Assembly: GCA_025359565.1 (NCBI GenBank)
Contig: JANYFY010000016.1
Location: 124,001 to 188,000, forward strand
Length of the DNA stretch: 64,000 nucleotides
Direction of reading: 5' to 3'
Origin: Gammaproteobacteria bacterium
Lineage (GTDB): Bacteria > Pseudomonadota > Gammaproteobacteria > Steroidobacterales > Steroidobacteraceae
Shown one piece after another: positions 46,762-64,000 of this stretch. The notes under the pieces are model-generated. The model saw only the letters and a list, made by a program, of their open reading frames with translations, did not search any database and was not told the origin of the DNA. The position numbers and the translations under genes are program-made. The stretch's first letter is position 1, and each line of letters opens with the position of its first letter.

Positions 46762-48687
46762 ATGACTCACTTGATGCGTTTGACCGCTCTCATAGTCGTG
46801 GTGGTTGCTCCTGCTATGAGTAAGGCGGCTGATTCTTTCGTCCACTCCTCGCTTACTCTGCGCGCTACGGATGTGATTGCTACGGGTAACGAATGGATTT
46901 CTCTGCCGGATATTCGGGTTTCGGACGGAGCGCTGGCAACTTTTAATGCCCTATCAATGCGCGATCGAGGTTTATTGCAGGCTAGTGGTGAGTCGCGGCC
47001 GGTGCTGGAGCCCTATTTCAAGGTGGGTGATAAAAAACTTGAGCTGCACGATCTGTCGTGGACATTATTGGAATACTGGATACCTCAGGCGCGAGAAACT
47101 GTGGACGGGTTAGAGTTAACCCTAACGTATTGCGCACCCAATGGATATCGTGCTGCATTTGTGCGGTTGACTGTTACCAATCACCGGCTGGAGCCGGTTC
47201 CGGTCACTCTTGGGATGAAGTCTTCTTTCGGTCGGTTAAGTCGGGTGACTTATGTACCGGTTGCTTTGAGGGGCGAGCGCAGTGTGGCACCCACCGCTTG
47301 GGTTGAGCCGGGAGAGGCGTATAGCTATATCACCAATGACACGCGATTTTCATGGGCGATTGTCCATCCAGGATCCAAGGCCACATTAGGATCGCCACCG
47401 CTTACGCTGTCGCCTGAGGCGGATGCTGCTCATACAGAGATACTTAAGACAGGTGAGGCGACCGAAGCTTTATTTGTATTGGCGGTGGGGGTTGAGGAAT
47501 TCAGTTCGGCGCATAACGCGCGTTCGTTGCGCGAGATATTAGATCGGTCGGGATCTGATGCCGTACTGAATGAGGCTGCCGCATGGTGCAAAGCGCGTAC
47601 TCGAACCACGGGTCATGCAGATCTTGATCTCGTAATGAATCGCAATTTTCTCTTCACCGAGCTCTACGCCTGGGGTCGCACCATTGATACAGAGCAATTA
47701 GTCGGGGTCACTTCGCGCAGTCCACGCTACTATGTGTCGGCTGCGTATTGGGATCGGGACGCGATGCTGTGGAGCTTTCCGGGGTTATTGGATGTGGACA
47801 CGCCTGCGGCACGAGAGGCTTTAGATTATGCACTGACCACTCAGTTGCGGAACACGGGAACCCATAGTCGATTTATTGATGGGATAGTGCTGGAGGATGG
47901 ATTTCAGTTGGATGAAGGTGTCGCGCCGATTATTGCACTGAGTTCCTATATGCGCGCTACTAATGACGTAAATTTTTTGACCGCACATCGTGATGCAGTT
48001 TATTTTCTTCGTGATCGACTTCTAGGTCGCTATGATTCTAATATCGGTATGTATTCGTCCCTACAAGACTCGCAGGATGAATTTCAAAAAGCACCTTTTT
48101 TGACCTACGACAACGTGTTGGCGTGGCGTGCATTATCGGATTTAGGAGTGTTGTTTCGACGGCTGAAGGATTCTACAGGTGCGGCCGAGATGAATCGCCG
48201 CGCGAAGCAACTGCACATCGCTATTCTCGCTCATACGGTGGATGCAGTGCCGGGTGCATCGGGGTCGGTATTTGCGGCCGCAACGGATGGAAGTCAATTT
48301 GTGCATACCGATATCCCGCCGGGGTCGCTCATGAAATTGCCGACGTTAGGATTTATTTCTGAAGACGATCCCTTGTTTGTGCGAACCTATAATTGGTTGC
48401 ACTCGGTAAATTATGCATATTCGTATTACGATAAGCGCTATGGAATACCGGGAAGTTATCGTCTTCCCATTACCACATCGTGGGTGATTGCTGATGAGTT
48501 GTTGCTCAAGCGTTCACGCGAGCGGGCGCAGAGCATACTGCTCGCGAGCACGTGGGATGCTGGGATTATCTCAGAAGGAATTGACCCTGATACGGCGAAA
48601 ATGGATATTGCGGGTGGGGCCTTTGCTACTGCGGCGGGATATGTCGCGCATGCTATTTGTGCGGTGGCGTGTCTGCCGCGGCCCTAA
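46762..48687 (+). CDS. Exported protein with six-hairpin-glycosidase-like architecture
   Basis: 641 residues with a signal peptide ending near MSKAAD. The first 250 residues are beta-rich, like the N-terminal sandwich of inverting glycosidases; the rest is helical with WDRDAMLWSFPG (W330, D331, D333) and EGIDPDTAKMDIAGG near the C-terminus, patterns found around acid residues in (alpha/alpha)6-barrel glycoside hydrolases. I do not recognise the family with certainty. The start at 46762 has GAAGG eight bases upstream and begins the signal peptide; the open frame from 46669 is not supported. Its position at the edge of the glucan locus, convergent with the GH3 gene, suggests an exo-acting periplasmic glycosidase. 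Confidence 0.6.
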   Translation: MTHLMRLTALIVVVVAPAMSKAADSFVHSSLTLRATDVIATGNEWISLPDIRVSDGALATFNALSMRDRGLLQASGESRPVLEPYFKVGDKKLELHDLSWTLLEYWIPQARETVDGLELTLTYCAPNGYRAAFVRLTVTNHRLEPVPVTLGMKSSFGRLSRVTYVPVALRGERSVAPTAWVEPGEAYSYITNDTRFSWAIVHPGSKATLGSPPLTLSPEADAAHTEILKTGEATEALFVLAVGVEEFSSAHNARSLREILDRSGSDAVLNEAAAWCKARTRTTGHADLDLVMNRNFLFTELYAWGRTIDTEQLVGVTSRSPRYYVSAAYWDRDAMLWSFPGLLDVDTPAAREALDYALTTQLRNTGTHSRFIDGIVLEDGFQLDEGVAPIIALSSYMRATNDVNFLTAHRDAVYFLRDRLLGRYDSNIGMYSSLQDSQDEFQKAPFLTYDNVLAWRALSDLGVLFRRLKDSTGAAEMNRRAKQLHIAILAHTVDAVPGASGSVFAAATDGSQFVHTDIPPGSLMKLPTLGFISEDDPLFVRTYNWLHSVNYAYSYYDKRYGIPGSYRLPITTSWVIADELLLKRSRERAQSILLASTWDAGIISEGIDPDTAKMDIAGGAFATAAGYVAHAICAVACLPRP

Positions 48688-48756
48688 CAATGCCTACCGC
48701 GGCTTCGCAAAGGGGCGCGGGCGGCGTTCAACTGCGGCTTCCACAAAGTCTTCTGG

Positions 48757-51063
48757 CTATCCAGCCAGTAACTCAAAGCTCGCCTTCGTCCCGGTCGTCG
48801 CAGACGATGATATCCACACATCGAACATACCTGGCTCCGCAATGCGAGCCAAGTCGGTAGTTATAAATTCGAGATCATGACGCCCTAAATCAAATTGTAC
48901 CGTCTCTGCTTGCCCAGACGATAATGAAACCTTGCGGAACGCTTTTAGGAGCCGCACGGGCTGCACGATGCTTGCGACGCGATCATGGATGTAGAGTTGC
49001 GCGGTTTCTTCGGCATCGCGTTTGCCGTGATTGGTGAGTGTGGTGCTGACGGTGACTTTGCCGTCCCACTGCATCTGTATCTTATCGACGCTGGGCGTAC
49101 TATATTTAATCTCACCGTAGGTTAGGCCATGGCCGAAGGGGTAGAGTGCTTGGTTGGGTATGCCAATGAAGTGCGAAGTAAAAGGTTCGGTGGCAGAATC
49201 GGTGGGACGACCCGAAGATTCGTGGCAGTAATAGTAGGGGACTTGGCCCGGAACAATCGGGAAGCTCATGGGTAAGCGGCCGGAGGGGGCGGCGTCACCA
49301 AATAATAGGTCGGCGATGGCACTGCCCGATTCAGTGCCTAAAAACCAAGTAACAAGGATGGCTTGGGCGTTACGCACCGCGCCGGTCAGTGCTAGCGCGC
49401 GGCCATTTTTCAAAATCACAATGACGGGCTTGCCGGTGGCTGCCACCGCCTCTGCCAGTGCTTGTTGAGCAGCGGGGACTATAATCTCAGGGCGTGAGGA
49501 GGACTCACCAGACATATCGTTGGATTCGCCGATAGCAAGCAATACGATGTCGGCATTAGTGGCAGCAGCTACAGCAGACTCAATACCACCGGGCAGGGGT
49601 TTCTCAATATCCGAACCGGCCACCACAGTGAGGCTTGCGCCATCGTGAAGAGCCGCCTTAATTCCAACGTCTAACGCGGTAGGTTTGACACCTGTAAAGA
49701 TAGGTTGCCACGGACCGTTCAGATGTAAATCGCCTGTGCCGAATGGACCGATCAATGCAATGCGTTGACCGGACTTCGCGAGCGGCAATAAACCGCCTTC
49801 ATTCTTGAGTAACACAATCGATTTAATCGCAGCCTCACGAGCTAACGGTCGATGCGCCTTAATGTGCAAGGCTTCGCTATTGCGGTTGCCATCCAGGCGA
49901 CGGAACGGATCGTCGAATAGACCCGCCGCTTCTTTGACTTTCAAGAGTCGAGCAACGGCGCGGTCGAGTACTTCCATGGGCACTAGTTTGGCGCGCACAA
50001 GCTCAGGTAAATAATGCAGGAATATGCCGCTGATCATGCTGACATCGCAACCGGCGAGTATCGCCAAGCGGGCTGCGTCGCGTTCATCGACTGCGAAACC
50101 GTGTTTGACCAATTCTTTTTCGCTCTCGAAGTCGGAGACGACCGCACCTTGGAATCCCAGTTCATCGCGCAGGATGCCGGTGAGTAGTCGATGATTGCCG
50201 GTGTTAGGCACCCCGTCGATCGTATTAAACGATACCATGGTCATCATGGCACCCGCTTTATACGCCGCGGCAAAGGGCGGCAAATAAACACTGTGCAGTA
50301 TCCGTTCAGTGATGGGTGCGCCGGCATAGTCGAGTCCGGCTTCGGCAGCACCGTAGGCGGCAAAGTGTTTGGGGCAGGCGAGTAGGCTGTCGGCATTGCT
50401 GGGCGAGGTCCCTTGGAAGCCCTCCACTCTGGCAGCCGCAAACAGTGTTCCTAGCAGCACGTCCTCTCCGGCGGCTTCAACGACACGGCCCCAGCGCTGA
50501 TCGCGCGCGATATCGACCATGGGCGCGTAGGTCATATCATGTCCCGCCGCGCTGGCTTCGATTGCCGAGGCACGCGCCGTACGCCGGGCAAGATCAGGTT
50601 CAAAGCTTGCCGCTTCACCGACCGGCACCGGGAAGACGGTATGAAAGCCGTGAATGATGTCGCCTGCACAGAGTAGGGGGATTCCTAAGCGAGACTCCTT
50701 GACGGCAGCGTGTTGCGCAAGCCGCATCAGATCGAGCGTCAGTGGCGACATCACCATCCCAACTTTGCCGGCTCGAATGCGGACAAGCTGGGCTTTATGG
50801 TTTGCTATAGCGGCGGCGAGATTGGCTTTTCGCTCGACCGGATTGACGGCTTTTACACCCCAAGGGTCTTCGGTGGGCGATTGGATGCCTTCGAGATTGA
50901 GTTGACCCGCTTTCTCTTGGAGGGTCATGCGGGCGATGAGAGCGGCGTGCTCATTCCGCGATGCAGTAGTTTCGGCGGCACCTGATTTTCCCAAGGCTGT
51001 CAGAGTTCCAGCCGCGAGACCTGCAAGCACGATGATTCGGCGTTCGATGTCTATTGGGTTCAT
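48757..51063 (-). CDS. bglX: GH3 beta-glucosidase (BglX-like), exported
   Basis: 768-residue glycoside hydrolase of family 3: N-terminal TIM-barrel with KHFAAYGAAEAGLDYAG (about 232) and nucleophile D311 in AVVSDFESE, a C-terminal sandwich with LLKNEGGLLPLAKSG, and a fibronectin III-like domain after FGHGLTYGEI. A signal-like hydrophobic stretch (about residues 10-30) suggests periplasmic location. In beta-1,2-glucan pathways GH3 enzymes split sophoro-oligosaccharides to glucose. It lies 81 bases after the 51145-53211 gene on the same strand, the third gene of an apparent GH144-unknown-GH3 operon. Gene symbol by family only. Confidence 0.9.
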   Translation of the reverse strand: MNPIDIERRIIVLAGLAAGTLTALGKSGAAETTASRNEHAALIARMTLQEKAGQLNLEGIQSPTEDPWGVKAVNPVERKANLAAAIANHKAQLVRIRAGKVGMVMSPLTLDLMRLAQHAAVKESRLGIPLLCAGDIIHGFHTVFPVPVGEAASFEPDLARRTARASAIEASAAGHDMTYAPMVDIARDQRWGRVVEAAGEDVLLGTLFAAARVEGFQGTSPSNADSLLACPKHFAAYGAAEAGLDYAGAPITERILHSVYLPPFAAAYKAGAMMTMVSFNTIDGVPNTGNHRLLTGILRDELGFQGAVVSDFESEKELVKHGFAVDERDAARLAILAGCDVSMISGIFLHYLPELVRAKLVPMEVLDRAVARLLKVKEAAGLFDDPFRRLDGNRNSEALHIKAHRPLAREAAIKSIVLLKNEGGLLPLAKSGQRIALIGPFGTGDLHLNGPWQPIFTGVKPTALDVGIKAALHDGASLTVVAGSDIEKPLPGGIESAVAAATNADIVLLAIGESNDMSGESSSRPEIIVPAAQQALAEAVAATGKPVIVILKNGRALALTGAVRNAQAILVTWFLGTESGSAIADLLFGDAAPSGRLPMSFPIVPGQVPYYYCHESSGRPTDSATEPFTSHFIGIPNQALYPFGHGLTYGEIKYSTPSVDKIQMQWDGKVTVSTTLTNHGKRDAEETAQLYIHDRVASIVQPVRLLKAFRKVSLSSGQAETVQFDLGRHDLEFITTDLARIAEPGMFDVWISSSATTGTKASFELLAG

Positions 51064-51144: not shown

Positions 51145-53211
51145 TCACGGGTGCACATAAGCAGCATTATCAAACCGTAGCGCCTCGCCATTTTTTAGAT
51201 CGAACGACACCGTGGAAGTTGCGTCACGCCACGCGGTTCTTAATCGCTTGAGTTCCTTTGGCTTAATAGTGAAATTCTGATCGTGACTCTCCGGCGAACG
51301 AACAACAATCGTGGCGTCCATGTCGCCATCGTTATAGGCATCGATACCCACAAAGATGCGTGGGCTGCAAAACCGGAACTCTGCGTGGCGAGTTTTTGGC
51401 TCGGCAAGGGTGAGGTTAAAAGTTCCGAACTTCCCGTAGGGTATTCCAATTCGCCACGCGCCTGGGCTCCAATCAATGACGCCGGAAGGGTATTCGCCTA
51501 GTAACAATGTCCCCGCCGCAAGGTGAGGATCGTCGAAGGTAATATAGGACGGCACTAACGGTCCTTTGCGGCCTTGAATATCGACGTCTCGAGAATTTTC
51601 GTGACGAATTACAATAGTGCGATTCTTATCGTCGAAGACGTAACCCTCGTATGCGCCATGCTCTAAGTCCTTGAGTCGGCTGATCGACTTTCCTCCGACG
51701 GTGATGGAGTTTGGGAGGAAGGCTAAACGGAGTATGTCGGTCGATTGGGTGTCGAAAGTCGAATAGGTAACAGAATTTTCGCCGTACGCTATTCTCGTGA
51801 CGACCGAAACGGAGCCCAATAAATGCGACTCATCGGCGGGAGCCCATTCGGGTACTGCCCAAAAAGCATCCATCATGCGGCGCGGGCCATCGGCAAACTC
51901 ATCGGTAAACCACCATTGGTTCACGAAAGGGGCGTGGGCAGCTCCCGGAAGTCCCTGAAAATAGGTGACAAAGTTATAGGTGCGGTAAGCCTCTTCTTTG
52001 TAGGACAGGTCTCCGGTTTTCGCGTAGTAAAGCGCCTCTGCAGCGGCAAGCCGTGCGCTATGGCTATCGCAGCACTGGGGCGGGGGATTACAACAATATT
52101 CCTTGCCATCTCCCTGCTCAGTCGTCACGGTTGCTCCGTGTACGATGTACTTGGGCCATTTGGGCGTGGTTTTTACCCATTCGATTAGTTTGCGAGAATG
52201 TTCACGCCAATCGGTGTCTTTTTCAGGATGCAGCAGTACATAACGGGCAAACTCTAGTGGGATGACCTGATTCATGTTTGCCATGCTCGGATGGACATCC
52301 TCGAAGTATCCGACCCAGACGTTATTTCGCAGCGGATATTTAATCAGCCAAGCCCAGGCGCCATCCCGCACGGTTTTATACGAAGCAGTATTACCCGCAC
52401 CAAGGCGAATGAGTTCATCCAGTAATATGATCGGGTCGACTACATTCGCTGAATAGCCAAACATCCCTTTGCCATTGACTTGACCATCGCGTGCGAAATT
52501 TCGATACGGCCAAGGTGAATTTAATGCATCACCTTCTTTAAAATTTTTTGCGAGTGCCTCGCCACAGCGAATCGCAGCATTGAGATACCGAGTGTTTCCG
52601 GTCATCTCATAGAGCCGAAGATATCCGTACCCGTCCTGGCCCACGACATGGGGTTCTACATAGTCTTCGCCGTGTTCGCTCCAGCCGGTGTAGCGATGAG
52701 CACCCGGATTTGCAGAGGCATAGGGGACCTGAGCCCAGACATACCCTTCTGGTGTAAGACCATTGTCGAGTTCGTAATCAACGAAATTCCGAATGAATTC
52801 CAGGGTTCTAGGATCTCCCGTGTAGGGGTAGAGACGCTCGACAAAACCCTGCAACATAGCGCGCAAATAGCCGGTGGAATTTGCCCAGTGTTCGTCCGGC
52901 TTCATTTCAAAGGTGACACGATCAAAATCGAAGCAGCAATAAAAGTAGGGGAGCCGCTGGCGATTGTACTGGTCCCACAGAATAGTCCACTGCGAGAGAA
53001 AATAGGCGGAGTAGGAATATCCAATGTTGTCAGCTATTGGCCATGGCTGCAATTTTCTCTGGTCATCCAGCTGAACGGTCCTTCCAGCAATAGTGGGTGC
53101 ATTTGCTATCGACGTGACCGGAAAGAGTCGCTGCCCGATACAAACAGATGTACTTAGCGAGAGCGCGAAAAGAAAACCTGCGCCAGGTTTTATTTTTGTG
53201 ATTCGAGCCAC
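51145..53211 (-). CDS. Exported protein of unknown family, likely carbohydrate-active
   Basis: About 688 residues if started at the GTG at 53211 (an ATG at 53277 would overlap the upstream gene by 88 bases). The GTG start gives a clean signal peptide (ARITKIKPGAGFLFALSLS) with cleavage near SVCIGQ. The mature part begins with a helical region containing YFYCCFDFDRVTFE, then GYVWAQVPYASANP and DGYGYLRLYEMTGN, a repeated helical pattern like (alpha/alpha) toroids, and a C-terminal beta domain. A cluster YCCNPPPQCCDSHSARLAAA suggests a cysteine-rich active-site or metal site. No family recognised. It is translationally overlapped with the upstream GH144 gene and followed by GH3. Confidence 0.65.
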   Translation of the reverse strand: MARITKIKPGAGFLFALSLSTSVCIGQRLFPVTSIANAPTIAGRTVQLDDQRKLQPWPIADNIGYSYSAYFLSQWTILWDQYNRQRLPYFYCCFDFDRVTFEMKPDEHWANSTGYLRAMLQGFVERLYPYTGDPRTLEFIRNFVDYELDNGLTPEGYVWAQVPYASANPGAHRYTGWSEHGEDYVEPHVVGQDGYGYLRLYEMTGNTRYLNAAIRCGEALAKNFKEGDALNSPWPYRNFARDGQVNGKGMFGYSANVVDPIILLDELIRLGAGNTASYKTVRDGAWAWLIKYPLRNNVWVGYFEDVHPSMANMNQVIPLEFARYVLLHPEKDTDWREHSRKLIEWVKTTPKWPKYIVHGATVTTEQGDGKEYCCNPPPQCCDSHSARLAAAEALYYAKTGDLSYKEEAYRTYNFVTYFQGLPGAAHAPFVNQWWFTDEFADGPRRMMDAFWAVPEWAPADESHLLGSVSVVTRIAYGENSVTYSTFDTQSTDILRLAFLPNSITVGGKSISRLKDLEHGAYEGYVFDDKNRTIVIRHENSRDVDIQGRKGPLVPSYITFDDPHLAAGTLLLGEYPSGVIDWSPGAWRIGIPYGKFGTFNLTLAEPKTRHAEFRFCSPRIFVGIDAYNDGDMDATIVVRSPESHDQNFTIKPKELKRLRTAWRDATSTVSFDLKNGEALRFDNAAYVHP

Positions 53212-54626
53212 CCACCGGTGAACCCGGCGCGCAAGAGGCCCCGCCGCAGATAGGGGTTGCCGCGCATCAGTTTCCAAATTAGCCCGCTACGATAGTTTTC
53301 AACCATACCTATGATTAAACCTTGATCGATCCCCAAATAGTCGACATCGAACCAGCCGAGTCTAGGTACGAATTTACCCGTTTTGGGTAGCCATGAAAAA
53401 CTAGGGTTGAATGAATCGCGAAATCCGTAGGTGGAGTATAAATATCCGCCGTATCGATTGCGCATTTCAGCTATCGCGGGTAAAACGATTTCCGGCGCAA
53501 AAGGCAGGGAGCCAATGGCACCGTTCGGAGCCAAAGTGCCATCGTCGAACAACGCGATACCTCGGCCCGCATATCCCAAAAAGCGTCGAATCTTTCCGCC
53601 GTGAGGTCGATACGCTAGACCTGGCCCATCGCAGGCAGTAAGTCCCCAGAGATTTTCACTGAAACCGCTCCAAGATTTTGGATTGGCAATGGCATAGTCG
53701 CGATTCGCATAGGTGGCACGGCGCGCGTTTTCGAAGTAGTCGATTCCCTTCGCACGCATAAACGCGTCTTGGACACCCCGTAGATCCACCCACAGCGGTG
53801 TGAATTGATGCACGAACAGTGTGGGATAAGCGAGGTAATTCTGACCGAATTCGAAGCGCCAATTTTTCTCATAAGTGGTGGTCCAAAGTTGCCACGAAGA
53901 GTCAGTCAGGGGATGCGTGGGTGAGCCGAGACCGAGCAGATAAATCAACATGCCCTCGTTAAATCCCAACCAACTTTTTTGCATGAGTCCGGTTTCAGGA
54001 TTCCAACCCATCGCCACCCCGCCGTCATCGTGGGACGCCCAGTTCCAGTCAACCCTCCGGTACAGATCATCGGCGAGGGTGCGTAACTCGACCTCAATGG
54101 GATCACTCGCGTCAAAATATGCGGCACTCGTGAGCGCGCCAGATATTAAAAGGGCAGTATCTATAGTGGACAATTCGGTGTTCCGATAGCGCAAGCCAGT
54201 TTGCATGTCGAGGAAGTGATAGAAAAAGCCCCGAAAACCACTTCGACCTCGTGATTCGGGACCTTGAGGTGCACCATGAAAAAACTTTAAAGTGGTAAGC
54301 GTCCGCGCGGCACCTTGTTCCCTGGAGATATAGCCACGTTCAATACCGATGGTATAGGCGGTCAGTGCGAACCCAACTGCTGCGATACTCGAAAAAGACG
54401 GCGTTGGATAACGATCTGGAATGAGGCCATTGCTAGGATTAACCGTCTGCCAAAAATAATCAAAAGTGCGTCGCTCGAGATCATCAACCAACGCCGGATC
54501 GTTCGCATGGACTAACGTGGATGCTGAAATAGCAGAGGGATACTCGGGTTTGTTTAGCGAAACACACGCGGATAGGTTAATCAACGATACGAATGCGACG
54601 CTTGGCCAGATATTTTGCAAGGTCAT
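53190..54626 (-). CDS. Glycoamylase-like/GH144 protein, probable endo-beta-1,2-glucanase lipoprotein (copy 1)
   Basis: 478 residues in the glucoamylase-like (alpha/alpha)6 family that CAZy lists as GH144, whose studied members are endo-beta-1,2-glucanases. LSAC (about residue 20) is a lipobox, so it is probably a lipoprotein; I chose the ATG at 54626 for that reason over the longer frame from 54719. Family motifs: RTFDYFWQTVNPSNGLIPDR (split as FDYFWQ and NGLIPDR), GFFYHFLDMQTG, SENLWGLTACDGP, YGFRDSFNPSFSW and DVDYLGIDQGLIIGMVENYR. It starts the leftward run to the GH3 gene and is divergent from the OpgG-like gene. Confidence 0.85.
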   Translation of the reverse strand: MTLQNIWPSVAFVSLINLSACVSLNKPEYPSAISASTLVHANDPALVDDLERRTFDYFWQTVNPSNGLIPDRYPTPSFSSIAAVGFALTAYTIGIERGYISREQGAARTLTTLKFFHGAPQGPESRGRSGFRGFFYHFLDMQTGLRYRNTELSTIDTALLISGALTSAAYFDASDPIEVELRTLADDLYRRVDWNWASHDDGGVAMGWNPETGLMQKSWLGFNEGMLIYLLGLGSPTHPLTDSSWQLWTTTYEKNWRFEFGQNYLAYPTLFVHQFTPLWVDLRGVQDAFMRAKGIDYFENARRATYANRDYAIANPKSWSGFSENLWGLTACDGPGLAYRPHGGKIRRFLGYAGRGIALFDDGTLAPNGAIGSLPFAPEIVLPAIAEMRNRYGGYLYSTYGFRDSFNPSFSWLPKTGKFVPRLGWFDVDYLGIDQGLIIGMVENYRSGLIWKLMRGNPYLRRGLLRAGFTGGWLESQK

Positions 54627-54695
54627 CTCGCACGTCGAATTAGCGATGCAATCATAGTAAGCCAGTGTCGCGCATCCAGTCGCAAGCGGCAATCC

Positions 54696-54762
54696 TTTCA
54701 TGAAACATACTGCCGACATCTTGCGCTAGGGCTTCAGTCGTTCACATAATGAAACATGTTTC
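54696..54762. promoter_or_regulatory. Palindromes in the OpgG-like/GH144 divergent promoter
   Basis: TTTCATGAAA (54696-54705) and GAAACATGTTTC (54751-54762) are perfect palindromes sharing the half site GAAAC; the nonamer ATGAAACAT occurs twice (54700 and 54749), 49 bases apart. The second overlaps the start codon of the OpgG-like gene. This could be an operator for a shared regulator of the divergent genes. The spacing is by inspection and no regulator gene is present in the window. Confidence 0.35.
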
Positions 54763-56387: not shown

Positions 56388-57899
56388 TTAGCGCTGCGCG
56401 GCTGCGCAATAGCGTGCAATGAACTGCGCGTGCATCGGCATGGCATCCACGCAGGCGGCGATAACTTTACGCACGCCGTCAACGAACTCGCCGATCTGCG
56501 CGTCGGGCATTTGATCAACGACGGGATGGTATTTTTTCGGGATGATGCGCTGACCTAGCATCACCTGTACCCAGCTAGTGACTGCAAACATTTCCTCGGC
56601 ATTGCGGAATACGCGGCCGCTATCCTTAAATAAGTGGGTATAGCTTTCAAGCTGCGACGGAATACTCATTGTGCGGCAATAGTTCCAAAACGGTGTGTCG
56701 GTTCGTGAGGTCGCATGATAGTGCAGAATTATAAAATCGCGGATCCGCTCAAGTTCGAATGCGGACTGTGCGTTATAGCGCTCAATGAGCACGGGACTGA
56801 AGCCCTGATCCGGGAGTAGGTTGATGAGCCTCGCTATGCCTGACTGAATCAGGAAAATACTGGTGGATTCCAGTGGCTCCAAAAATCCGCTCGCTAGCCC
56901 AATTGCAACGCAATTTCGATTCCAGAATTTTTTACGCATTCCTGTAGTAAATTTGAGTGTGCGTGGGTCCGCCAAAGTCCGTCCATCAAGATTTTGCAAA
57001 AGAGTCGCAGCGGCCTCGTCATCGCTTACATAGGCGCTTGAATACACGTAGCCATTGCCGGTGCGGTGTTGCAGCGGAATTCGCCATTGCCAGCCGGCCG
57101 CACGTGCGGTAGAGCGCGTGAACGGAGTAGGTTGCCCGACGTTTTCGCAAGGAACAGCCACTGCCCGGTCGCAGGGCAGCCAATGAGTCCAATCCTCGTA
57201 GCCGGTATGTAGCGTCTGCTCAATCAGTAATCCGCGAAAGCCGGAGCAATCGATAAATAAATCGCCGCTGATCAACTCGCCCGCCTCGAGGCGCACGGCT
57301 TCTATGAAACCGTCCTCGCTACGTAATTTGACTTCAACTACCTTGCCCTCAATACGACGTATGCCGCGCGCTTCGGCATAGCGACGTAAGTATTGCGCGT
57401 ACAATCCGGCATCGAAATGATAGGCATAGGCAATGTTGCCCAGCGGCGAGTTTGGTGGCGCGTCACTTGCCGACGCCATGAATTTACCTTGTGTGCTGGC
57501 CACTGCATTTAGGGAATAAGCGCCGATGCCTTGCGCTGAACCTGCGAGATATTGTTTAAGCCAATACTGATAAAACGGCAGGAGACCATGGTCGTGGCCG
57601 ATGGTGCCGAAGCCGTGGATATAGCGGTCACCTATTCGCGCCCAATCAACAAACTCTATGCCGAGCTTAAAGGTTCCTTGAGTTTGTTTAACGAACTCTA
57701 TTTCGTCAATTTCGAGAATTTGGTTGAATAACTTTAGATGTGGCACCGTCGCTTCGCCCACGCCCACTGTACCGATCTCCTCCGATTCTACTAACTGAAC
57801 CGAGTAGTCCCGGCTCAGTAACTTCGAAAGGGCCGCGGCGGCCATCCAACCCGCGGTGCCGCCGCCGACGATGACAATTTTTCTTATTCGGCTATGCAT
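56388..57899 (-). CDS. Flavin-dependent tryptophan-halogenase-like protein
   Basis: 503-residue FAD protein of the tryptophan halogenase family. FAD loop IVGGGTAGWMAAAAL (residues 10-24), the lysine equivalent to the catalytic one in TFKLG (K78), the WQWRIPLQ signature (WxWxIP) and GLASGFLEPLESTSIF with the conserved glutamate are all present, so the halogenation machinery looks intact. It begins seven bases after the TonB receptor stop region, on the same strand. In Xanthomonadales and related groups such proteins commonly accompany TonB-dependent receptor genes of glycan loci with no known halogenated product; the role is open. Confidence 0.88.
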   Translation of the reverse strand: MHSRIRKIVIVGGGTAGWMAAAALSKLLSRDYSVQLVESEEIGTVGVGEATVPHLKLFNQILEIDEIEFVKQTQGTFKLGIEFVDWARIGDRYIHGFGTIGHDHGLLPFYQYWLKQYLAGSAQGIGAYSLNAVASTQGKFMASASDAPPNSPLGNIAYAYHFDAGLYAQYLRRYAEARGIRRIEGKVVEVKLRSEDGFIEAVRLEAGELISGDLFIDCSGFRGLLIEQTLHTGYEDWTHWLPCDRAVAVPCENVGQPTPFTRSTARAAGWQWRIPLQHRTGNGYVYSSAYVSDDEAAATLLQNLDGRTLADPRTLKFTTGMRKKFWNRNCVAIGLASGFLEPLESTSIFLIQSGIARLINLLPDQGFSPVLIERYNAQSAFELERIRDFIILHYHATSRTDTPFWNYCRTMSIPSQLESYTHLFKDSGRVFRNAEEMFAVTSWVQVMLGQRIIPKKYHPVVDQMPDAQIGEFVDGVRKVIAACVDAMPMHAQFIARYCAAAQR

Positions 57900-57905
57900 C
57901 GCACC

Positions 57906-60900
57906 TCAAAACTTATAGCCCACCGTCAAGCGCAAGGTCTGAGGAGCGCCTGATATATTTCCAGTGGCGTTATAACGGACTGGCTTTGGATTTGCTACCC
58001 CGTTCGAACCATAACTGGATATTGTGTCTGTATAATTATGCGAGTTAAGCGCGTTGATCAAATCTACACGGATATACGCCGTTTGTTCCCCATACACGGT
58101 GAAGTTTTTAGTGGCTTGTAGATCGAGCGAACTAAATCCTATCGCATCTAAAGGTGTGTTGGATACCGGCGTACAACCGCTACCTGTCGCGTAGTACGTT
58201 TTGTCAGGCAAAATCCCGCAGGCTAAGTCGTTAACCGGTAGAGGCGAAGCCACGCTCAGCTTGCCGGCGAAAATCATTTCCCAGGGACCACTGATCGAAG
58301 CAGTCGCGACAATACGATGCCGGGGGGCCGCGCTCGACGCAATTTGGGGATATTGAGCGACTGTGCGCTCATCAAATGCGCAGCAATCGTCGATATGGAT
58401 ATGATTCTGTTTCGCGCCCGTGAAGGTATAAGCAATAGTGGTACCCCAGCCGGATTCCATCGTGAAGGGCTTTTCTGCCGACAACAATACTTGTGTGGTT
58501 TTCCTTTCGAAGCCTGTGCCTCCCAAGATCAGCGAACCAAAGCCTGGAATGCCGTTCCCCCATGGCTGACCGCCGTTTACCCAGAACGCGCCGTCGGGAT
58601 ACCGGTTGCCAAGCGTCAAGGCAAAGCCGTCGTAACTTAAGATTCGCGAAACGGTTGCGCTTGTATTCCAATCGCCTACCTTATTGCGCATACCTAGGCT
58701 GAACTGATCAGAGTGCGGAGGTTTGATGTGATTGTTCATTAAATCGGCTTCCTGCCCGACGTTGGTCCCCGCGACGAGTGCCTGGAGATTGGTGATGCCA
58801 TTAAGATACTTCGGGTCCCAGGCGAAGCACGGCGAACCCGTATTGCCTTTCACACTGGTACACCCGGTAGGGGGATCGAAGTACACCGTGATCTGCGGCA
58901 ACGCAGTCTTGGTTTGCTCAACCTGCAGATTCTGATATAGATCCCGATCGTAGGAACGTCCATAACCGCCGAATATTACATGCTGCTGATCGGCGTTGAT
59001 ATCGAAGGAGAAGCCTAAGCGCGGTTGAAATTCACCCATGTAGGCACTGCGATTGTGTCCGGTGCTAATGTAGTCGTTGATATTGACTCCGCCCTTGGCG
59101 AGCGTCTGAGCGTAGGTCTGACCCGGAAACAAAGTTTGCGCGTTCAAATCTAGGTTGTTTAAAGCGGCCACCACATTAGCCGGCGTTACATTATTAAGAT
59201 AGGAGGAATTTTTTTCCACATCCCAGCGAACGCCTAAATTCCAGATTAAGCGCTCATTAACCACCCAATCGTCTTGAAAATACAGGCCAAATTGTTTGTC
59301 TTTCGATTTTGCGGTCGGGTCCAATCCTGCCACCGGGTTTGTAAACAAGGCTCTGTATGGAGAGCCTGCAAAGCCCGTCTGCGTAGCGTTAAGATCAAAA
59401 GTAAATTGCGGATTGATGTTTAAAGCGTCCGCTGCGGTCAATTTAATTTCTTTGTACTTGAAGCCGGTCTTCAGCGTGTGATCGCCCATCCAATGGAGAT
59501 CGTGAAAGGTCAGATCGTCCTGAAAACCCGGTCCTCGTTGACCTTTGTTTTGACTTGCACGCGGGTCAGGGGCACCTGTGCTGAGCACGGTTTGGTCATT
59601 CTTATCGCGAATCGCGTAAACCGTTCCATTGCCGATGTTTTGACCGACCTTATTGTAGAAAGTATCCTCATCAGTAAACAACGCATCATTGAACCAGCGG
59701 TCGGCACTATGCTGCCAGCGCGCGGCAAGGCGGGTATCAGTATTCTTGATGTTTTGACTAGATGATGGCGCACTTTGGTTGCCGATGCCATCAACTTGTT
59801 TCTCGTCGCGAATTTTGGCGCTGAATTCAAAACGATCATATTCTGATAATTCCCAGTCCAATTTGCCGAAATACAGACTTTCCTTAAAAGGTAGGTCTGA
59901 CGGCCCCAACTCCGCGACCGCATTCGCGGGAAGCAACAGGGTTATTGGCGTCCCATTCACGGACAAAACCCCGGGGACCACGGTAATCGGCGTATTGTAT
60001 TTCTTGCCTTCGTAGGTTACAAAAAAATGCAGTTTGTCTTGGATGATGGGGCCGCCAAAGGCGACGCCGTATTCTTTATCTTGAGATTTGGTTTTTACCC
60101 CGGCATTCAGCTCTGAAGGCGTGTAAGCCCGCAGCCCGTCGCTGGTATAGGTGCCAAACGCTTCGCCATGAAATTCATTAGTGCCGGATTTCGTTCCCGC
60201 GGTGATCGCTGCGCTCGAAACCTGATCGAATTCGGCCTTGTAGTTTGAGGTGATGACTTTATACTCACCGATGGCTAGCTGCGGAAAGGGGTTGCCCTGG
60301 GTGAAGCCATTGCCGTTGACTCCTCCGAACACATAGTTCTTTTGGCCCACACCGTCGATAAAGACGTTGGTAGCGCTCTTATCCTGTGCGCCGCCGCGTA
60401 GGGAACCGTTGCCCTTGTTATCTACGCTAAATGCCAGACCCGGTACCGTATCTGCAAACTCCAGAAAATTGCGCGTGAGTTGCGGCACCGTTTGAATCTG
60501 CTGCAGCGATACAGTACCGCCGACTTCGGATGTTTTGACTTCAACCAGACGCCTCGAGCTAACTGTAATTTCTTGCAACGATTCTCCGGCGACTGCAGGT
60601 GCCGCACCGGCCGCAAGATCCAAAGTAGCCGTTGAAGCGACCGTCAATGTAACGGCGGCCTCCGTGCCAGGACCTGCATCGACTCGATACGTTCCGGGAG
60701 CCAAACCTACTAGCGTATAGGTGCCTTCGGCACTCGCCTTGGTGCGGCGCGTTGTACCGGTGGCGACATTCTTTGCAGTGACCTCAACGTTGGCCGCGGC
60801 TTTACCCCTTAGGGTTGCGTCGGCCGTTTGCGCCCAAACAGTTGTGGGCGACGCGAGGATCGACGCTATGGCGGTAGCGAGGAGCGACTGGTTAATTGAT

Positions 60901-60923
60901 TTCCGGGTGCATCGCGTTTTCAT
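57906..60923 (-). CDS. TonB-dependent receptor with N-terminal carboxypeptidase-regulatory-like domain (Oar-like)
   Basis: About 1005 residues. Signal peptide ends near TTVWAQ; a beta-sandwich (about 35-105; GTYTLVGLAPGTYRVDAG) like the carboxypeptidase regulatory domain precedes the plug (about 110-240; TVPQLTRNFLEFADTVPGLAF split as TVPQLTRNFL and VPGLAF) and the barrel, ending LTVGYKF with terminal phenylalanine. I chose the ATG at 60923 because AGGGG is eight bases upstream, rather than the ATG two codons earlier. It is followed by the halogenase-like gene after six bases. It probably imports an oligosaccharide made by the surface GH144 enzymes; the substrate is inferred from neighbours. 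Confidence 0.92.
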   Translation of the reverse strand: MKTRCTRKSINQSLLATAIASILASPTTVWAQTADATLRGKAAANVEVTAKNVATGTTRRTKASAEGTYTLVGLAPGTYRVDAGPGTEAAVTLTVASTATLDLAAGAAPAVAGESLQEITVSSRRLVEVKTSEVGGTVSLQQIQTVPQLTRNFLEFADTVPGLAFSVDNKGNGSLRGGAQDKSATNVFIDGVGQKNYVFGGVNGNGFTQGNPFPQLAIGEYKVITSNYKAEFDQVSSAAITAGTKSGTNEFHGEAFGTYTSDGLRAYTPSELNAGVKTKSQDKEYGVAFGGPIIQDKLHFFVTYEGKKYNTPITVVPGVLSVNGTPITLLLPANAVAELGPSDLPFKESLYFGKLDWELSEYDRFEFSAKIRDEKQVDGIGNQSAPSSSQNIKNTDTRLAARWQHSADRWFNDALFTDEDTFYNKVGQNIGNGTVYAIRDKNDQTVLSTGAPDPRASQNKGQRGPGFQDDLTFHDLHWMGDHTLKTGFKYKEIKLTAADALNINPQFTFDLNATQTGFAGSPYRALFTNPVAGLDPTAKSKDKQFGLYFQDDWVVNERLIWNLGVRWDVEKNSSYLNNVTPANVVAALNNLDLNAQTLFPGQTYAQTLAKGGVNINDYISTGHNRSAYMGEFQPRLGFSFDINADQQHVIFGGYGRSYDRDLYQNLQVEQTKTALPQITVYFDPPTGCTSVKGNTGSPCFAWDPKYLNGITNLQALVAGTNVGQEADLMNNHIKPPHSDQFSLGMRNKVGDWNTSATVSRILSYDGFALTLGNRYPDGAFWVNGGQPWGNGIPGFGSLILGGTGFERKTTQVLLSAEKPFTMESGWGTTIAYTFTGAKQNHIHIDDCCAFDERTVAQYPQIASSAAPRHRIVATASISGPWEMIFAGKLSVASPLPVNDLACGILPDKTYYATGSGCTPVSNTPLDAIGFSSLDLQATKNFTVYGEQTAYIRVDLINALNSHNYTDTISSYGSNGVANPKPVRYNATGNISGAPQTLRLTVGYKF

Positions 60924-61280
60924 TCTCATTTCCCCTACTCGACTAAATTAATTAAGTTTCAAGTCCAAATAGCTTAAGTCTCATGGCTGTGCCTCATACG
61001 CAACGTCTCAATTAACCGAGAATTCTTAACCTTTCGCTTCGCGAACTTACACAGCAATACTTTAAATAGATTACGCCTACAATCTTAGTGACGTCAATTG
61101 TCTGTAGGACGAAAGGAAAATTTTGCGTTTTATTTTTTGGCAGTACATAATCGTTGTATTTTTGCCACAATCGAATCGGGGGTAAGTACAAGCGCAAGAA
61201 TTGTTTGCTGGCGAAACATTTATTGACAGGGCGTACCTGCCGTTCTACTAACAGCGATTGAGTGCGCTGTGCACGACGGA
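60924..61280. other. 357-base intergenic region upstream of the TonB receptor
   Basis: No coding sequence, tRNA or recognised riboswitch is seen. It is AT-rich next to the receptor start and holds TTAATTAA. A candidate promoter for the receptor is listed separately. The end of the second GH144 gene borders it, and no clear terminator hairpin for that gene was found. Confidence 0.6.
61068..61097 (-). promoter_or_regulatory. Candidate sigma-70 promoter for the TonB receptor
   Basis: On the minus strand TTGACG (61097-61092) and TAATCT (61073-61068) are separated by 18 bases, giving a leader of about 140 bases before the receptor start. The -35 is good and the -10 weak, so confidence is low. Confidence 0.3.
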
Positions 61281-62765
61281 TTAGCTTTGACCGGCGGGCG
61301 CTTGAGCCAGCCAGCCTCCCGAGAAACCCGCTCGCTCCAGTCCGCGGCGCACGGTGGGATGGTTGCGCATCGTGCGCCACACGAGTTCGGTGCGATGATT
61401 GCCGATCATCGCGAGGGTTGATCCTTGGTCGATGCCGAGATAATCAATATCTACCCACCCAAACTCTGGTACAAGTCGTCCGTAGCGCAAAGGCTTGTCA
61501 TAGTCAAAACTTAAATTGAAGGCGTCTAGAAATCCATACTGACTATAGATGGTTTTTCCGTACTCTTTGCCCATTTGTTGTAGAGCGGGTATCACGATTT
61601 CGGGGGCGAAGGCGATCGACGTGGCGGCAGCCGTCGGCGCGATAGTGCCATCATCATTAATGCCCAAGATGCCGCCACCGCGCGCGCTGTAGGCGTTAAA
61701 TTGCAGGGTTCTACCGGATTTGTGAATGTTAACGTCGGCTGGACCGTCGCTGGCCGTGAAGCCCCAGACGTTTTCGCCGTAACCTGTCCAGCGTTTCGGA
61801 TTGGCGATGGCATAAGCGCGATTCGCATAAGTAGCCCGGCGAGAATTTTCGAAATAATCCAGATCTCGTCGCTGCATGTAGGTGTCGCGGATACCGCGAA
61901 AATCGATCCACGTGTGTGAAAATTGGTGACCGAATAAAGCCGGAAAGGTCAAATGTTCTTGGCCATGCCAAGTACCCCAAGATCGATCATAAGTCGAACA
62001 CCACTTGGCCCATGCCGCGGGGTGGACGGCGAACGTCGGTGATCCCAGCGCCAAAATATAGACTAGCATGGCTTCGCAATAGCCGAGCCAGTCGTGCTTG
62101 ATGAAGCCAGATTCCGGTCGCCACCCATGGCAGATGGCAGGCGCGCGCGGCTGCGCCCATTTCCAGTCGATGCGCGCTTCGATCTCATCGATCAAGTTAC
62201 GGAGTTCCGACTCGACTAAATTCGAACCGTCAAAATAAGTTCGACAAAAAAGCATTCCGCCCATCAGGAAGGCCGTATCGACCGTCGACAACTCGAATTG
62301 CCGAACGCGCGTCCCGGTCTGCATGCCTAAATAATGGTAGTAAAATCCCTTGTAACCCGCAGTGCCGGTGGCCTGGGGACCCTGCGGCGCGTTACGAAAA
62401 AATCGCGCGGTTGCAAGAACTCTATTTGCTGCCTGGGAACGTGATACATAGCCACGTTCAACACCAATCGGATATGCCGTGAGTCCGAATCCGACCGACG
62501 CGACGCTGGCAAATTCCTCATTTGGCCACCGGTCGCATACCAAACCATTGGCCGGGTTAGTAGTATCCCAAAAAAATTTGAAGGCCCGTTGAGCGAGGTC
62601 GTCTATCAATTGCTCGGGCTCGAAGGGAATCGAGACGGGTTCTGATATGGTAAAACGGCCATCGCTTTTGCGCAGCGCACATCCGCTGGCAATCGCAAGG
62701 CCTGCGCCCAGAATTAAGCGGCGTCGATTATCGATTGGCTGTGTCGCATGCCCTTCATCAAACAT
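61281..62765 (-). CDS. Glycoamylase-like/GH144 protein, probable endo-beta-1,2-glucanase lipoprotein (copy 2)
   Basis: About 494 residues from the ATG at 62765. The N-terminus RRRLILGAGLAIASGC combines a Tat-like start with a lipobox ASGC. GFYYHYLGMQTG, GENVWGFTASDGP, FLDAFNLSFDYDK and DIDYLGIDQGSTLAMIGNHR match copy 1 almost motif for motif. It lies upstream of the TonB receptor on the same strand and is divergent from the esterase gene. Like copy 1 it is expected on the outer membrane or in the periplasm. Confidence 0.85.
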   Translation of the reverse strand: MFDEGHATQPIDNRRRLILGAGLAIASGCALRKSDGRFTISEPVSIPFEPEQLIDDLAQRAFKFFWDTTNPANGLVCDRWPNEEFASVASVGFGLTAYPIGVERGYVSRSQAANRVLATARFFRNAPQGPQATGTAGYKGFYYHYLGMQTGTRVRQFELSTVDTAFLMGGMLFCRTYFDGSNLVESELRNLIDEIEARIDWKWAQPRAPAICHGWRPESGFIKHDWLGYCEAMLVYILALGSPTFAVHPAAWAKWCSTYDRSWGTWHGQEHLTFPALFGHQFSHTWIDFRGIRDTYMQRRDLDYFENSRRATYANRAYAIANPKRWTGYGENVWGFTASDGPADVNIHKSGRTLQFNAYSARGGGILGINDDGTIAPTAAATSIAFAPEIVIPALQQMGKEYGKTIYSQYGFLDAFNLSFDYDKPLRYGRLVPEFGWVDIDYLGIDQGSTLAMIGNHRTELVWRTMRNHPTVRRGLERAGFSGGWLAQAPAGQS

Positions 62766-62842
62766 CGCGTGAATTCCTCGTTTTGATATAGTACCTTTTA
62801 TGCTCAAAGCCGCGTTGTGAATCATCTGCATGAGGTATTTTA

Positions 62843-63634
62843 ATGCTACTCCTTAATCGGTTTGTACTGACGTTCTTAATTTGTATCGTCGTTACGGGTC
62901 CTGCTGAGGCGAAGCACGAAACTGGTTTTCTGGATCGTTTGGTGGTGGTTAACGCTGTTTCCTACAAGTACCAGGTCTACGTGCCCGAAAATTGGACCGC
63001 TGCCAGGCAATGGCCGGTGATTCTTTTTCTGCATGGTTCAGCTGAAAGGGGTGAGGATGGACTTGTTCAAACGGAGGTGGGCATTGGCACCGCAATCCGT
63101 CGCGATCGTGCCCGCTTTCCCACCATCGTGGTCATGCCGCAAAGCCGCGCAGATGGGTGGTGGACTGAGCCGTCAATGACGGCGGTGGCGATGGCTGCCT
63201 TGAGCGCAGCTTCGAAAGAATTTCGCGGCGATCTTGCGCATACTTACTTGTCGGGTCTATCGATGGGGGGCTACGGTGCATGGCGTATCGCTGGCGAATA
63301 TCCCAACCGATTCGCCGCGCTCGTACCCATATGCGGCGGTATAGTGAAGCCTGAAGAAGCTCGAAGCCACGCCTCGGATGATATGAGTGTTTACACTGAA
63401 GCTGCGCGAAAGATCGGATCGCGCACTCCGGTTTGGATATTTCATGGAGGCGATGATACGACCGTGCCAGTACTTGAATCGCGGCGTATGTACGAGGCAT
63501 TAAAAGCACTGGGTGCTGACGTTAAATATACGGAATATCCGGGCGTCGGCCACGCTTCTTGGGAGAACGCGTATGCTGAATCTGAGCTGATGCCGTGGAT
63601 ATTGTCGAAGTCGCTACTTACCCGCCACTTCTAA
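62843..63634 (+). CDS. Exported alpha/beta-hydrolase esterase
   Basis: 263 residues with a signal peptide ending near PAEAKHE. Oxyanion region [14 protein letters not shown] (about residue 56), nucleophile elbow [12 protein letters not shown] (about 140), acid region [10 protein letters not shown] (about 215) and [11 protein letters not shown] with the histidine (about 245) match predicted esterases of the phospholipase/carboxylesterase or PHB-depolymerase-like type. In carbohydrate loci such enzymes often remove acyl groups from glycans. It overlaps the convergent third GH144 gene by 21 bases at the 3' end. Confidence 0.85.
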
Positions 63635-64000
63635 CTTTTTGAGCATACTCGGGATCTCAGGATTCGACATAAAGGTCTTCCACAGAAGGCCAGTACGGTA
63701 GTTCTCCACCATCGCCACAATGGGCGCTTGATTGAGACCCATGTAGTGCCACGACACCCAGTGTTGGGAGGGATTGTAGTTGTCACGAGGTCCGTAGATT
63801 CCCCATAGCTCCGTGCCAAGATCGCGATAGTAATGTTTGAACGCTGCCATTGACGCCTCGGGCGTGTACGGGAAGGAGGACAGTGCACCCGTCAGCGTAA
63901 TGGTTCCTTCGTCGTTGGCAGTGTCGGGTGCTGGAGTGCTGTATCCATTAAAACCGAAGCTCGCGGTAAGGCCCCACGCATCGGGTCCGTAGCCTGCAAA
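63614..64000 (-). CDS. Glycoamylase-like/GH144 protein (copy 3), N-terminus beyond window
   Basis: The last 128 codons of a leftward gene cut by the window edge. [30 protein letters not shown] and [16 protein letters not shown] match the C-terminal third of copies 1 and 2, and [20 protein letters not shown] is the shared C-terminal helix. The segment that reads YLGIDQG in the other copies is YMGLNQA here, so the active-site surroundings differ and the substrate may too. The start and signal peptide are not visible. Confidence 0.82.

Follow-up and report, generated by a model that had tools for sequence, protein, structure and literature searches.

Beta-1,2-glucans are sugar polymers held in the cell envelope of many bacteria, and to our knowledge little is known of their fate outside the cell. 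The nearest described counterparts of the locus reported here are presumably the Bacteroidota GH144-GH3 beta-1,2-glucan systems, for which we take BDI_3064 and BT_3567 as representatives and BDI_3064 to be a sophorose-releasing enzyme. XccOpgD, a GH186 protein, is an alpha-1,6-cyclised beta-1,2-glucohexadecaose synthase. Production of a DP18 glucan with alpha-1,6 cyclisation is reported for Cereibacter sphaeroides (PMC11842490). In the parts of the sources available to us, beta-1,2-glucans are described from many Gram-negative bacteria, with roles in osmoregulation, symbiosis and pathogenesis (PMC11842490), and an exo-type GH144 that releases sophorose is on record together with GH3 partners (PMC11842490, PMC12369401). 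Sophoro-oligosaccharide clusters of Listeria (lin1839-1841) and Streptomyces (SGR_2422-2427) combine, in the accessible text, a phosphorylase or glucanase with an ABC binding protein and a GH3 or GH1 enzyme (PMC12369401). The GH144 enzyme XcSGL (XCC2207) of Xanthomonas campestris was active on beta-1,2-glucan and, in the portion of the report at hand, inactive towards every other polysaccharide examined alongside (PMC12102758). Here we describe a gene cluster at the right end of the window, by which we mean the whole stretch of 64,000 nucleotides that was analysed, and we put at roughly four in five the probability that this locus takes up and digests beta-1,2-glucans from outside the cell, judging from sequence comparison.

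Gene content and extent of the locus

All of the genes that an earlier sequence-only reading had named between 46.8 and 64 kb, comprising GH144 and GH186 genes, GH3, a TonB receptor, an esterase and exported proteins, were found (Table 1), with two of the three GH144-type genes complete in the window and the third cut by its end. Of the two exported proteins which that reading had left as of unclear family, the first could be assigned as GH125-like (GH125L), whilst the second (P4) is still without a family; a tryptophan-halogenase-like gene, flanked by those for OpgD and the receptor, had been absent from its list. Pfam scores were far above the curated cut-offs, at 241.7 and 265.2 bits for PF10091 (cut-off 27) and 605 bits for PF04349 (cut-off 25), so that chance matches are excluded.

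Table 1. Genes of the locus, with coordinates in the window
Feature	Position	Strand	Evidence
GH125L, GH125-like exported protein; proposed exo-alpha-1,6-glucosidase	46762..48687	+	PF06824
GH3 beta-glucosidase, BglX-like	48757..51063	-	PF00933/PF01915/PF14310
P4, exported protein without Pfam family	51145..53277	-	alpha/alpha-barrel and beta domains
GH144a, putative XcSGL-type endo-beta-1,2-glucanase, lipoprotein by eye	53190..54719	-	8xul 546 bits
OpgD-like MdoG/GH186 protein, diverged extra copy	54756..56348	+	PF04349 605 bits
Tryptophan-halogenase-like flavoprotein, receptor's companion	56388..57899	-	PF04820 678.4 bits, E 6.8e-204
Oar-like TonB-dependent receptor, proposed glucan importer	57906..60929	-	PF25183, PF00593, PF13620
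GH144b, putative XcSGL-type endo-beta-1,2-glucanase, lipoprotein by eye	61281..62831	-	8xul 611 bits
Secreted esterase/dienelactone-hydrolase-like	62843..63634	+	PF00756 E 7.5e-12
GH144c, BDI_3064-type; C-terminal part in window	63614..64000	-	whole gene 63614-65869

The last 128 residues of GH144c lie inside the window, and its gene was completed on the flanking contig. Past the window end this contig carries two MFS transporters, one of FHS type and one sugar porter, as well as ORFs that by eye resemble cytochrome b561 and PhyH; the locus probably extends ∼7 kb beyond the window. Among the ten proteins scanned against Pfam (nine locus proteins and the neighbour on the left) no SusD domain was found, and within this set the locus is not a SusCD-type polysaccharide utilisation locus, as defined by a SusD-like lipoprotein beside SusC. 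Recent insertion of the whole locus from a foreign source was considered and set aside, as its composition bears no strong sign of it: GC3 of the locus genes is 0.505-0.584, most of them one to two standard deviations above the mean of 32 ORFs on the left (0.509, sd 0.031). For GH144c and GH125L, quick trees without bootstrap place both among Acidobacteriota rows, which suggests that this pair was acquired by transfer.

GH144 proteins and their recurring neighbours

Membership of GH144 was established from PF10091 and from nearest relatives among GH144 structures, and the same seven PDB chains were matched by every GH144 query. Two of these chains are named glucanases, 8xul (XcSGL) and 5gzh (endo-beta-1,2-glucanase), the others being labelled putative glucoamylase or uncharacterised, although 5z06 (BDI_3064) is presumably a glucanase. 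The best PDB match of both GH144a and GH144b, which share 49 % identity, was XcSGL, and GH144c aligned with 5z06 from residue 37 to residue 747 of its 751 (653.5 bits). A tree restricted to matches of at least 350 residues grouped the proteins in the same manner, GH144a and GH144b with XcSGL and GH144c with BDI_3064; on sequence, all three group with characterised proteins, and the sequence-only reading, which placement outside the characterised clade would have refuted, is not contradicted. The SGL-clan residues, defined here as the counterparts of XcSGL E239, F286 and Y367 (Glu, Phe and Tyr; positions counted from the printed chain, offset 14) and an acid at the position of CpSGL E142, are retained in all four full-length GH144 proteins of the genome; their roles are taken from the part of PMC12102758 available to us. 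We accordingly name GH144a and GH144b as putative endo-beta-1,2-glucanases by family, and GH144c as a predicted BDI_3064-type enzyme.

The linkage of a TonB receptor, GH144 and GH3 recurs in related genomes, once beside an ABC sugar importer and GH94, as would be expected of the co-occurrence that the earlier reading had proposed to look for. The halogenase-like gene adjoins the receptor or GH144 in relatives, and the complete receptor-halogenase-GH144 set was seen in G442, G398, G433 and L140. In G442 a binding protein, a permease and GH94 lie near the set; that of L140 also includes GH125L, GH3 and a LacI regulator, with an ABC importer and GH1 behind GH144. A separate ABC-GH144-GH15 cassette is present in relatives as well.

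The GH3 protein belongs to its family, with the periplasmic beta-glucosidase 6r5i as best structure match and Lin1840 (4zoa, 4zo6) also among the 25 matches listed, but it falls short of the BglX equivalog NF011678 of NCBIfam (657.1 against a cut-off of 666 bits). An Arg at Lin1840 R572 (subsite +1) marks sophorose-preferring GH3 enzymes in the available part of PMC4757417. For P4, neither Pfam (at E 0.001) nor the PDB sequences gave a match, and translation may begin within the ORF as listed, GTG at 53223 being one candidate. A model from ORF residue 20 (pLDDT 64.8) gave a usable core whose Foldseek matches (best E 8.9e-7) were assorted alpha/alpha-barrel enzymes, including epimerases, GH47-type mannosidases, GH127, glucuronyl hydrolases and GH76. 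PF07944 (GH127) reached E 0.091 on P4 and 0.0012 on its G397 homologue, both under the Pfam cut-off. Because the structural matches are scattered, with TMq <0.4 among the best 50 listed, no family is claimed. P4 and the G397 homologue have a CC...CC motif in common, which we record as a lead only.

The extra OpgD copy and the GH125-like protein

The OpgD-like protein is a GH186 (MdoG family) member by its PF04349 match and by the presence of the general acid/base aspartates equivalent to D291 and D379. Its best PDB match was 8x18 (XccOpgD) at 598.5 bits, ahead of EcOpgD (428.3/426.1 bits) and EcOpgG (357.4/354.9 bits). Like XccOpgD, it further retains D342, D343, E376 and Q431 and has no GW motif on loop A, the mark of EcOpgD-type hydrolases (GH186 clade 2); unlike XccOpgD, it has Tyr for W76, His for R477 and a loop A (TRATNGGMPGQMLTHPAGRF) that is diverged even from OpgD of the genus. 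XccOpgD-type cyclases (GH186 clade 3) are recognised by a Trp or Tyr at W76 together with D343 and R477, and with R477 replaced the protein is not assigned as a CbG16alpha synthase, yet may work like one. In the tree it lies inside the genus's own OpgD clade, of which we regard it, by its sequence, as a diverged copy; that clade, XccOpgD's group and EcOpgD meet at one unresolved fork. The family given by the sequence-only reading was correct; its suggestion of a glucanase is amended, scores and residues being closer to the transglycosylase XccOpgD than to the glucanase EcOpgD. That the copy is a transglycosylase is conceivable at a little under even odds, and we lowered this estimate slightly because the tree leaves it and EcOpgD unseparated.

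An OpgD-type gene within a GH144 locus was found in no other genome, and neither OpgD nor OpgH occurs in any of the 54 GH125L loci. With distances compared by eye on contigs that are often short, the only other contig common to MdoG and PF10091 in 148 relatives was one of G392, where the two are ∼22 kb apart. An MdoG/OpgH pair ∼7 kb from GH144 in G548 was rejected as a second case, as genes intervene and the pair looks biosynthetic.

GH125L is GH125-like by a PF06824 match of 40.1 bits (cut-off 23.4), in which residues 420-612 alone are aligned; all 14 family members scanned matched PF06824 (E ≤ 0.001). Its family profile matches GH125 structures, seven of them strongly, and its C-terminal half can be aligned with the exo-alpha-1,6-mannosidases CpGH125 (2nvp), SpGH125 (3qry) and BtGH125 (2p0v). 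It differs from these in its gene context, in being ∼150-200 residues longer and in its distance, too great for single-sequence detection (a weak PDB match, E 0.024). D439, invariant in the 14 members, stands opposite the proposed catalytic acid D266 of 2p0v in a hand pairing that assumes agreement of chain and published numbering; E605 is likewise invariant, E393 of 3qry serving as reference for the catalytic base. An AlphaFold model on a 10-row alignment was poor (mean pLDDT 49.1), and profile comparison detected no homology to GH15 from the ABC-GH144-GH15 cassette (probability 1 %). The GH125L tree held the window protein and 49 of the 54 loci (L167, L172 and L186 were dropped as short, and L180 and L192 lacked a sufficiently long ORF match). 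Homologues occur in the named isolates Acidicapsa dinghuensis 4GSKX (L142) and Asticcacaulis sp. AC466 (L188).

Known GH125 enzymes are exo-alpha-1,6-mannosidases, as are the seven strong profile matches wherever an activity is named, and GH125L might be an ordinary alpha-1,6-mannosidase, no more than a passenger among glucan genes. We consider this rather unlikely, as 18 of 50 GH125L genomes had GH144 inside the stretch fetched, against 0.35 expected, an enrichment of ∼50-fold; scans of locus proteins and their neighbours gave no mannan-degrading family; and GH125L has 641 residues against 426-489 for the seven chains, with a Pfam match confined to the region given above. The enrichment was calculated from 50 of the 54 loci, leaving out L184 (same genome as L183) and L189-L191 (only ∼30 % identical), and from 98 hand-entered GH144 counts that exclude frames >1400 residues and small fragments. 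A non-CGS GH144 is held by 48 of the 50 genomes, and 36 of the 54 loci have no GH144 in the fetched stretch (22 of 38 among stretches of at least 15 kb). In Acidobacteriaceae all eight genomes with a strong GH125L match also have PF10091, a co-occurrence that means little because PF10091 is common in this family anyway (86 of 120 genomes). Our own reading, tentatively held, is that GH125L takes off alpha-linked, probably alpha-1,6, glucose from glucans. Our searches of the open-access literature, in which subscription papers are mostly missing, gave no report linking beta-1,2-glucan to GH125 or to a catabolic copy of OpgD, and no description of a pathway for eating alpha-1,6-cyclised periplasmic glucans.

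Proposed function and comparison with known systems

Gene content, family membership, retained residues and linkage are direct observations, and from the GH144 grouping and the recurring receptor-GH144-GH3 linkage, which support import and degradation of beta-1,2-glucan at the genomic level, we infer the substrate and the direction of flow. Surface-anchored GH144a and GH144b would cut the glucan outside, and the Oar-like receptor with its halogenase-like companion would carry the pieces into the periplasm, where GH144c could release sophorose and GH3 glucose from the non-reducing end, the MFS permeases beyond the window taking the sugars in. The parts of GH125L, the OpgD copy, P4 and the esterase are likewise deduced: GH125L could clear alpha-linked (probably alpha-1,6) glucose where beta-specific enzymes stop, as in alpha-1,6-cyclised glucans made by OpgD; the extra OpgD may act on long linear chains, as a transglycosylase; and the esterase, similar to one adjoining GH125L in 3 of 54 loci (L140, L167 and L192), may strip acyl groups from the glucan. 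The target named by the earlier reading thus stands, amended to a beta-1,2-glucan possibly carrying alpha links.

Alternatively, the locus might turn over or remodel osmoregulated periplasmic glucans made by the cell itself, with OpgD cyclising or trimming them and GH144 and GH3 recycling them. Two more MdoG genes are present in the genome, on either side of an OpgH-like glycosyltransferase gene, as is a cyclic glucan synthase-like protein of 2898 residues; the position of the locus copy in the genus's own OpgD clade fits such a role, and the relatives' ABC-GH144-GH15 cassette would suit recycling. A TonB receptor, however, points outward, GH144a and GH144b read as lipoproteins, and 41 of the 50 GH125L genomes are without an MdoG match, which together make this explanation improbable. 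A different or mixed target in which beta-1,2-glucose is just one component, such as a hemicellulose-like glycan or plant compounds bearing sophorosides, is highly improbable: GH39, found with a query matching beta-xylosidases in 17 of 54 GH125L loci and not needed for beta-1,2-glucan breakdown, the mannosidase activities of GH125, the distant GH127 likeness of P4 and the esterase would fit it, but the window locus showed no GH39 and has three GH144 genes with a narrow assayed relative in XcSGL, and GH94 and an ABC importer accompany GH144 in a related genome.

Uptake and digestion of external beta-1,2-glucan, our preferred reading, opens a proteobacterial catabolic route to testing and singles out two protein families as targets. 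We would go further only against the odds, to a pathway in which GH125L, as founder of an uncharacterised enzyme family, removes alpha-1,6 glucose and, with GH144 and GH3, eats alpha-1,6-cyclised glucans, the OpgD copy being a GH186 transglycosylase drawn from synthesis into catabolism. If true, it would be used mainly by Acidobacteriota and Proteobacteria feeding on the glucans of other bacteria, and an enzyme breaking the alpha-1,6 bond would be a tool for analysing cyclised glucans.

Listeria and Streptomyces are Gram-positive, and hence have no TonB receptor. The window locus resembles their clusters in joining glucan enzymes with GH3 and differs in its TonB receptor, with no ABC or GH94 gene seen in it. 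With the Bacteroidota systems it shares GH144, GH3 and TonB-dependent uptake, and its GH144c matches BDI_3064 over nearly the full length. It differs in having no SusD among the proteins scanned and an Oar-like receptor with a halogenase-like companion, and to the Bacteroidota set it adds a GH125-like enzyme, an OpgD copy and P4.

Layout of the locus

All genes named in the sequence-only reading were found at their stated positions in the window (G000:C11:124001-188000, source assembly 3.14 Mb). The assignment to Gammaproteobacteria comes from near relatives among named contigs and from the sequence-only reading, whose proposal of beta-1,2-glucan uptake and digestion remains the best reading by gene content and comparisons, with a probability of about 0.8. 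The locus probably extends to the sugar porter, since PhyH and sugar-porter genes (75 % and 84 % identical) also adjoin the GH125-like gene (GH125L) in one relative, G397.

Genes of the locus, in window coordinates continued beyond the window end
Feature	Position	Strand
GH125-like (GH125L)	46762-48687	+
GH3	48757-51063	-
Exported protein P4	51145-53277	-
GH144a	53190-54719	-
OpgD copy	54756-56348	+
Tryptophan-halogenase-like flavoprotein	56388-57899	-
TonB receptor	57906-60929	-
GH144b	61281-62831	-
Esterase	62843-63634	+
GH144c	63614-65869	-
FHS-family MFS	66551-67819	+
Cytochrome b561-like and PhyH-like ORFs (named from sequence)	between FHS-family MFS and sugar-porter MFS	
Sugar-porter MFS	end at 70771	

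On the left, housekeeping-like ORFs stop at ∼42.7 kb. Between them and the locus lies a BBP2-type outer-membrane porin (43097-44434; PF07642, E 6.7e-18) that may or may not be part of it. Two exported FAD amine-oxidase-like proteins, mutually similar by eye, are encoded at 26522-28387 and, directly left of the locus, at 44694-46685; the domain scan covered the latter.

GH144 glucanases and the recurring core

GH144c aligned with BDI_3064 (5z06; 653.5 bits) over residues 37-747 of 751, including the N-terminal domains, and we take BDI_3064 to be the sophorose-releasing exo-type GH144. Such an exo-type enzyme is known (PMC11842490, PMC12369401). For GH144a and GH144b, the top PDB match was XcSGL (XCC2207, 8xul; 546 and 611 bits, respectively), active on beta-1,2-glucan and inactive on every other polysaccharide examined alongside (PMC12102758). 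The clan-defining, acid and candidate-base positions given by the same source are kept in all three enzymes and in GH144d, a fourth full-length copy elsewhere in the genome. A quick tree placed GH144a, b and d within a 26-row group including XcSGL (SH-aLRT 95), and GH144c within an 11-row group including BDI_3064 (SH-aLRT 100) where it joins genome G447 and three Acidobacteriota rows to form a set of five (SH-aLRT 98).

GH144d sits at the end of contig C8 (L008 8191-12368), flanked by GH39 and by a gene that by eye resembles flavin disulphide reductases; G371 (L126) shows the same arrangement. Contig C33 of the source genome carries a GH144c-like gene just 135 residues long (L010 6483-6890), whose ends match GH144c residues 12-102 and 705-747; it adjoins a second TonB receptor and halogenase-like gene, followed by weakly matching GH94 (948 aa) and GH31 proteins and by a GH2 protein. 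This set (also L010 7117-11807 and L133 1172-8923) reads as a decayed or altered sister locus. Acidobacterial proteins of ∼1500 residues have a weak PF10091 domain (e.g. G528:C220:142483-143103, G530:C132:10571-11191); several are encoded only a few kb away from a GH144.

PF10091 was present in 52 of 148 relatives, counting the source genome. Among the wide stretches examined, the receptor-halogenase-GH144 core was complete in G442, G398 and G433, with GH3 adjoining the receptor in the last two, and G445 had receptor and GH144; in G397, a halogenase fragment lies next to GH144, with GH3. Beyond the core, G442 encodes permeases with a binding protein as well as a 1165-residue GH94, and in G378 a GH94 adjoins the GH144. 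Between the G442 ABC importer and GH94 lies a 1034-residue protein without a Pfam family (L115 13094-16198), a candidate further enzyme of a beta-1,2-glucan locus. One named contig (L140) carries, consecutively, esterase, GH125L, GH3, LacI regulator, receptor, halogenase and GH144, after which come an ABC importer and GH1 (L211). Both ABC binding proteins and enzymes of GH3 and GH1 that handle sophoro-oligosaccharides are known (PMC12369401).

The GH125-like family and P4

GH125L passes the Pfam GH125 cut-off over residues 420-612, and all 14 members scanned matched PF06824. Searched against the PDB, a profile of these 14 matched seven chains (E 1.2e-10 to 2.2e-7), the remaining two rows up to E 1 being weak and unrelated in name; 5m7i, among the seven, is named exo-alpha-1,6-mannosidase, and the matches 3p2c, 3qt3 and 3on6 are presumably GH125. 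Also among these matches, 2nvp, 2p0v and 3qpf/3qry are GH125 (PMC9425025). D439, invariant in the 14 members, pairs by hand with 2p0v D266, a proposed catalytic acid (PMC9425025), provided that chain and published numbering agree.

A scan of species genomes found 54 GH125L loci, by record title 29 in Acidobacteriota, 21 in Proteobacteria (including Sphingomonas, Siculibacillus and Asticcacaulis) and four in others. Within the stretches examined, GH144 lay nearby in 18 of the 54 loci, GH39 in 17, GH3 in 10 and any of the three in 27; for GH144, 0.35 were expected for the 50 genomes with known GH144 counts, and 200,000 simulated draws reached a maximum of 6. At genome level, PF10091 occurred in 49/50 GH125L genomes (48/50 without CGS-only, G529 and G546 then missing). 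This counts for less, since in one Acidobacteriaceae family 86 of 120 genomes carry it anyway, including 8/8 of those with a strong GH125L match (E < 1e-100). PF04349 was matched in only 9/50, so most GH125L bacteria seem to be without OpgG/OpgD-type glucan synthesis and would feed on such glucans of other bacteria; neither OpgD nor OpgH was found in the 54 loci. A quick tree placed the window protein in a seven-row Pseudomonadota group (98) nested in an 18-row set (94), the rest Acidobacteriota. In Occallatibacter savannae (L172 9911-11847), the GH125L reading frame is recorded in two pieces, with GH144c immediately after.

P4 matched only the source genome in a class sample of 369, and 15 of the 148 relatives (source included); similarity spans most of the P4 length in just two of these, G397 (54 %) and G369 (35 %). 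Its predicted model has an alpha/alpha barrel and beta domains; a structure search with this model gave no clear match, and GH127 is a weak lead. In G384, a short P4 relative overlaps a GH3 gene next to a GH144 cassette, and no GH3 was found within 1.5 kb in the remaining short-relative loci.

OpgD copy and a proposed role for alpha-1,6 links

GH125 clan enzymes act on alpha links, and plain beta-1,2-glucan has none. GH125 includes alpha-1,6-mannosidase activity (PMC9425025), and XccOpgD, a characterised GH186 protein, closes its ring by one alpha-1,6 bond (PMC11228985). GH144 would open such a ring and GH3 trim the opened chain until the alpha-1,6-linked glucose stopped it; an exo-alpha-1,6-glucosidase, the putative role of GH125L, would remove this block.

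GH15 and GH31 enzymes are mostly alpha-glucosidases. An ABC(SbmA/BacA-like)-GH144-GH15 cassette (L127 5242-11939, L128, L125, L136 and the short loci L061-L078) occurs in 10 of 29 GH144 loci of relatives, with GH3 adjoining in the four wide stretches, and at locus L145 a GH31 follows GH125L and GH144c; both would fit a need for alpha-link removal. The cassette GH144 is without an obvious signal peptide and MdoG is present in all 10 genomes (versus 43/148 relatives). The cassette may serve to recycle self-made glucans within the cell.

The source genome has three MdoG genes, two flanking an OpgH-like glycosyltransferase on contig C20 and the third in the locus. This OpgD copy scored highest against XccOpgD (598.5 bits versus 428.3 and 426.1 for EcOpgD) and, in the tree, forms a long branch (0.56) within the clade of OpgD proteins from its own genus (99/97). 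Since that clade, the XccOpgD group and long-branched EcOpgD join at one unresolved fork, its closeness to XccOpgD is a matter of scores and residues. Judged by published residue and loop criteria (PMC11228985, PMC10514313), it retains the catalytic pair, D342, D343, E376 and Q431; W76 is Tyr and R477 is His, as in the genus OpgD; and in its loop A the SWHF stretch present in its kin is gone, with no GW motif of hydrolytic clade 2. It is neither clearly a cyclase nor clearly a hydrolase, our best guess being a transglycosylase-like enzyme. New in this locus are the way its genes are combined, the GH125-like family and the recruitment of an OpgD copy.
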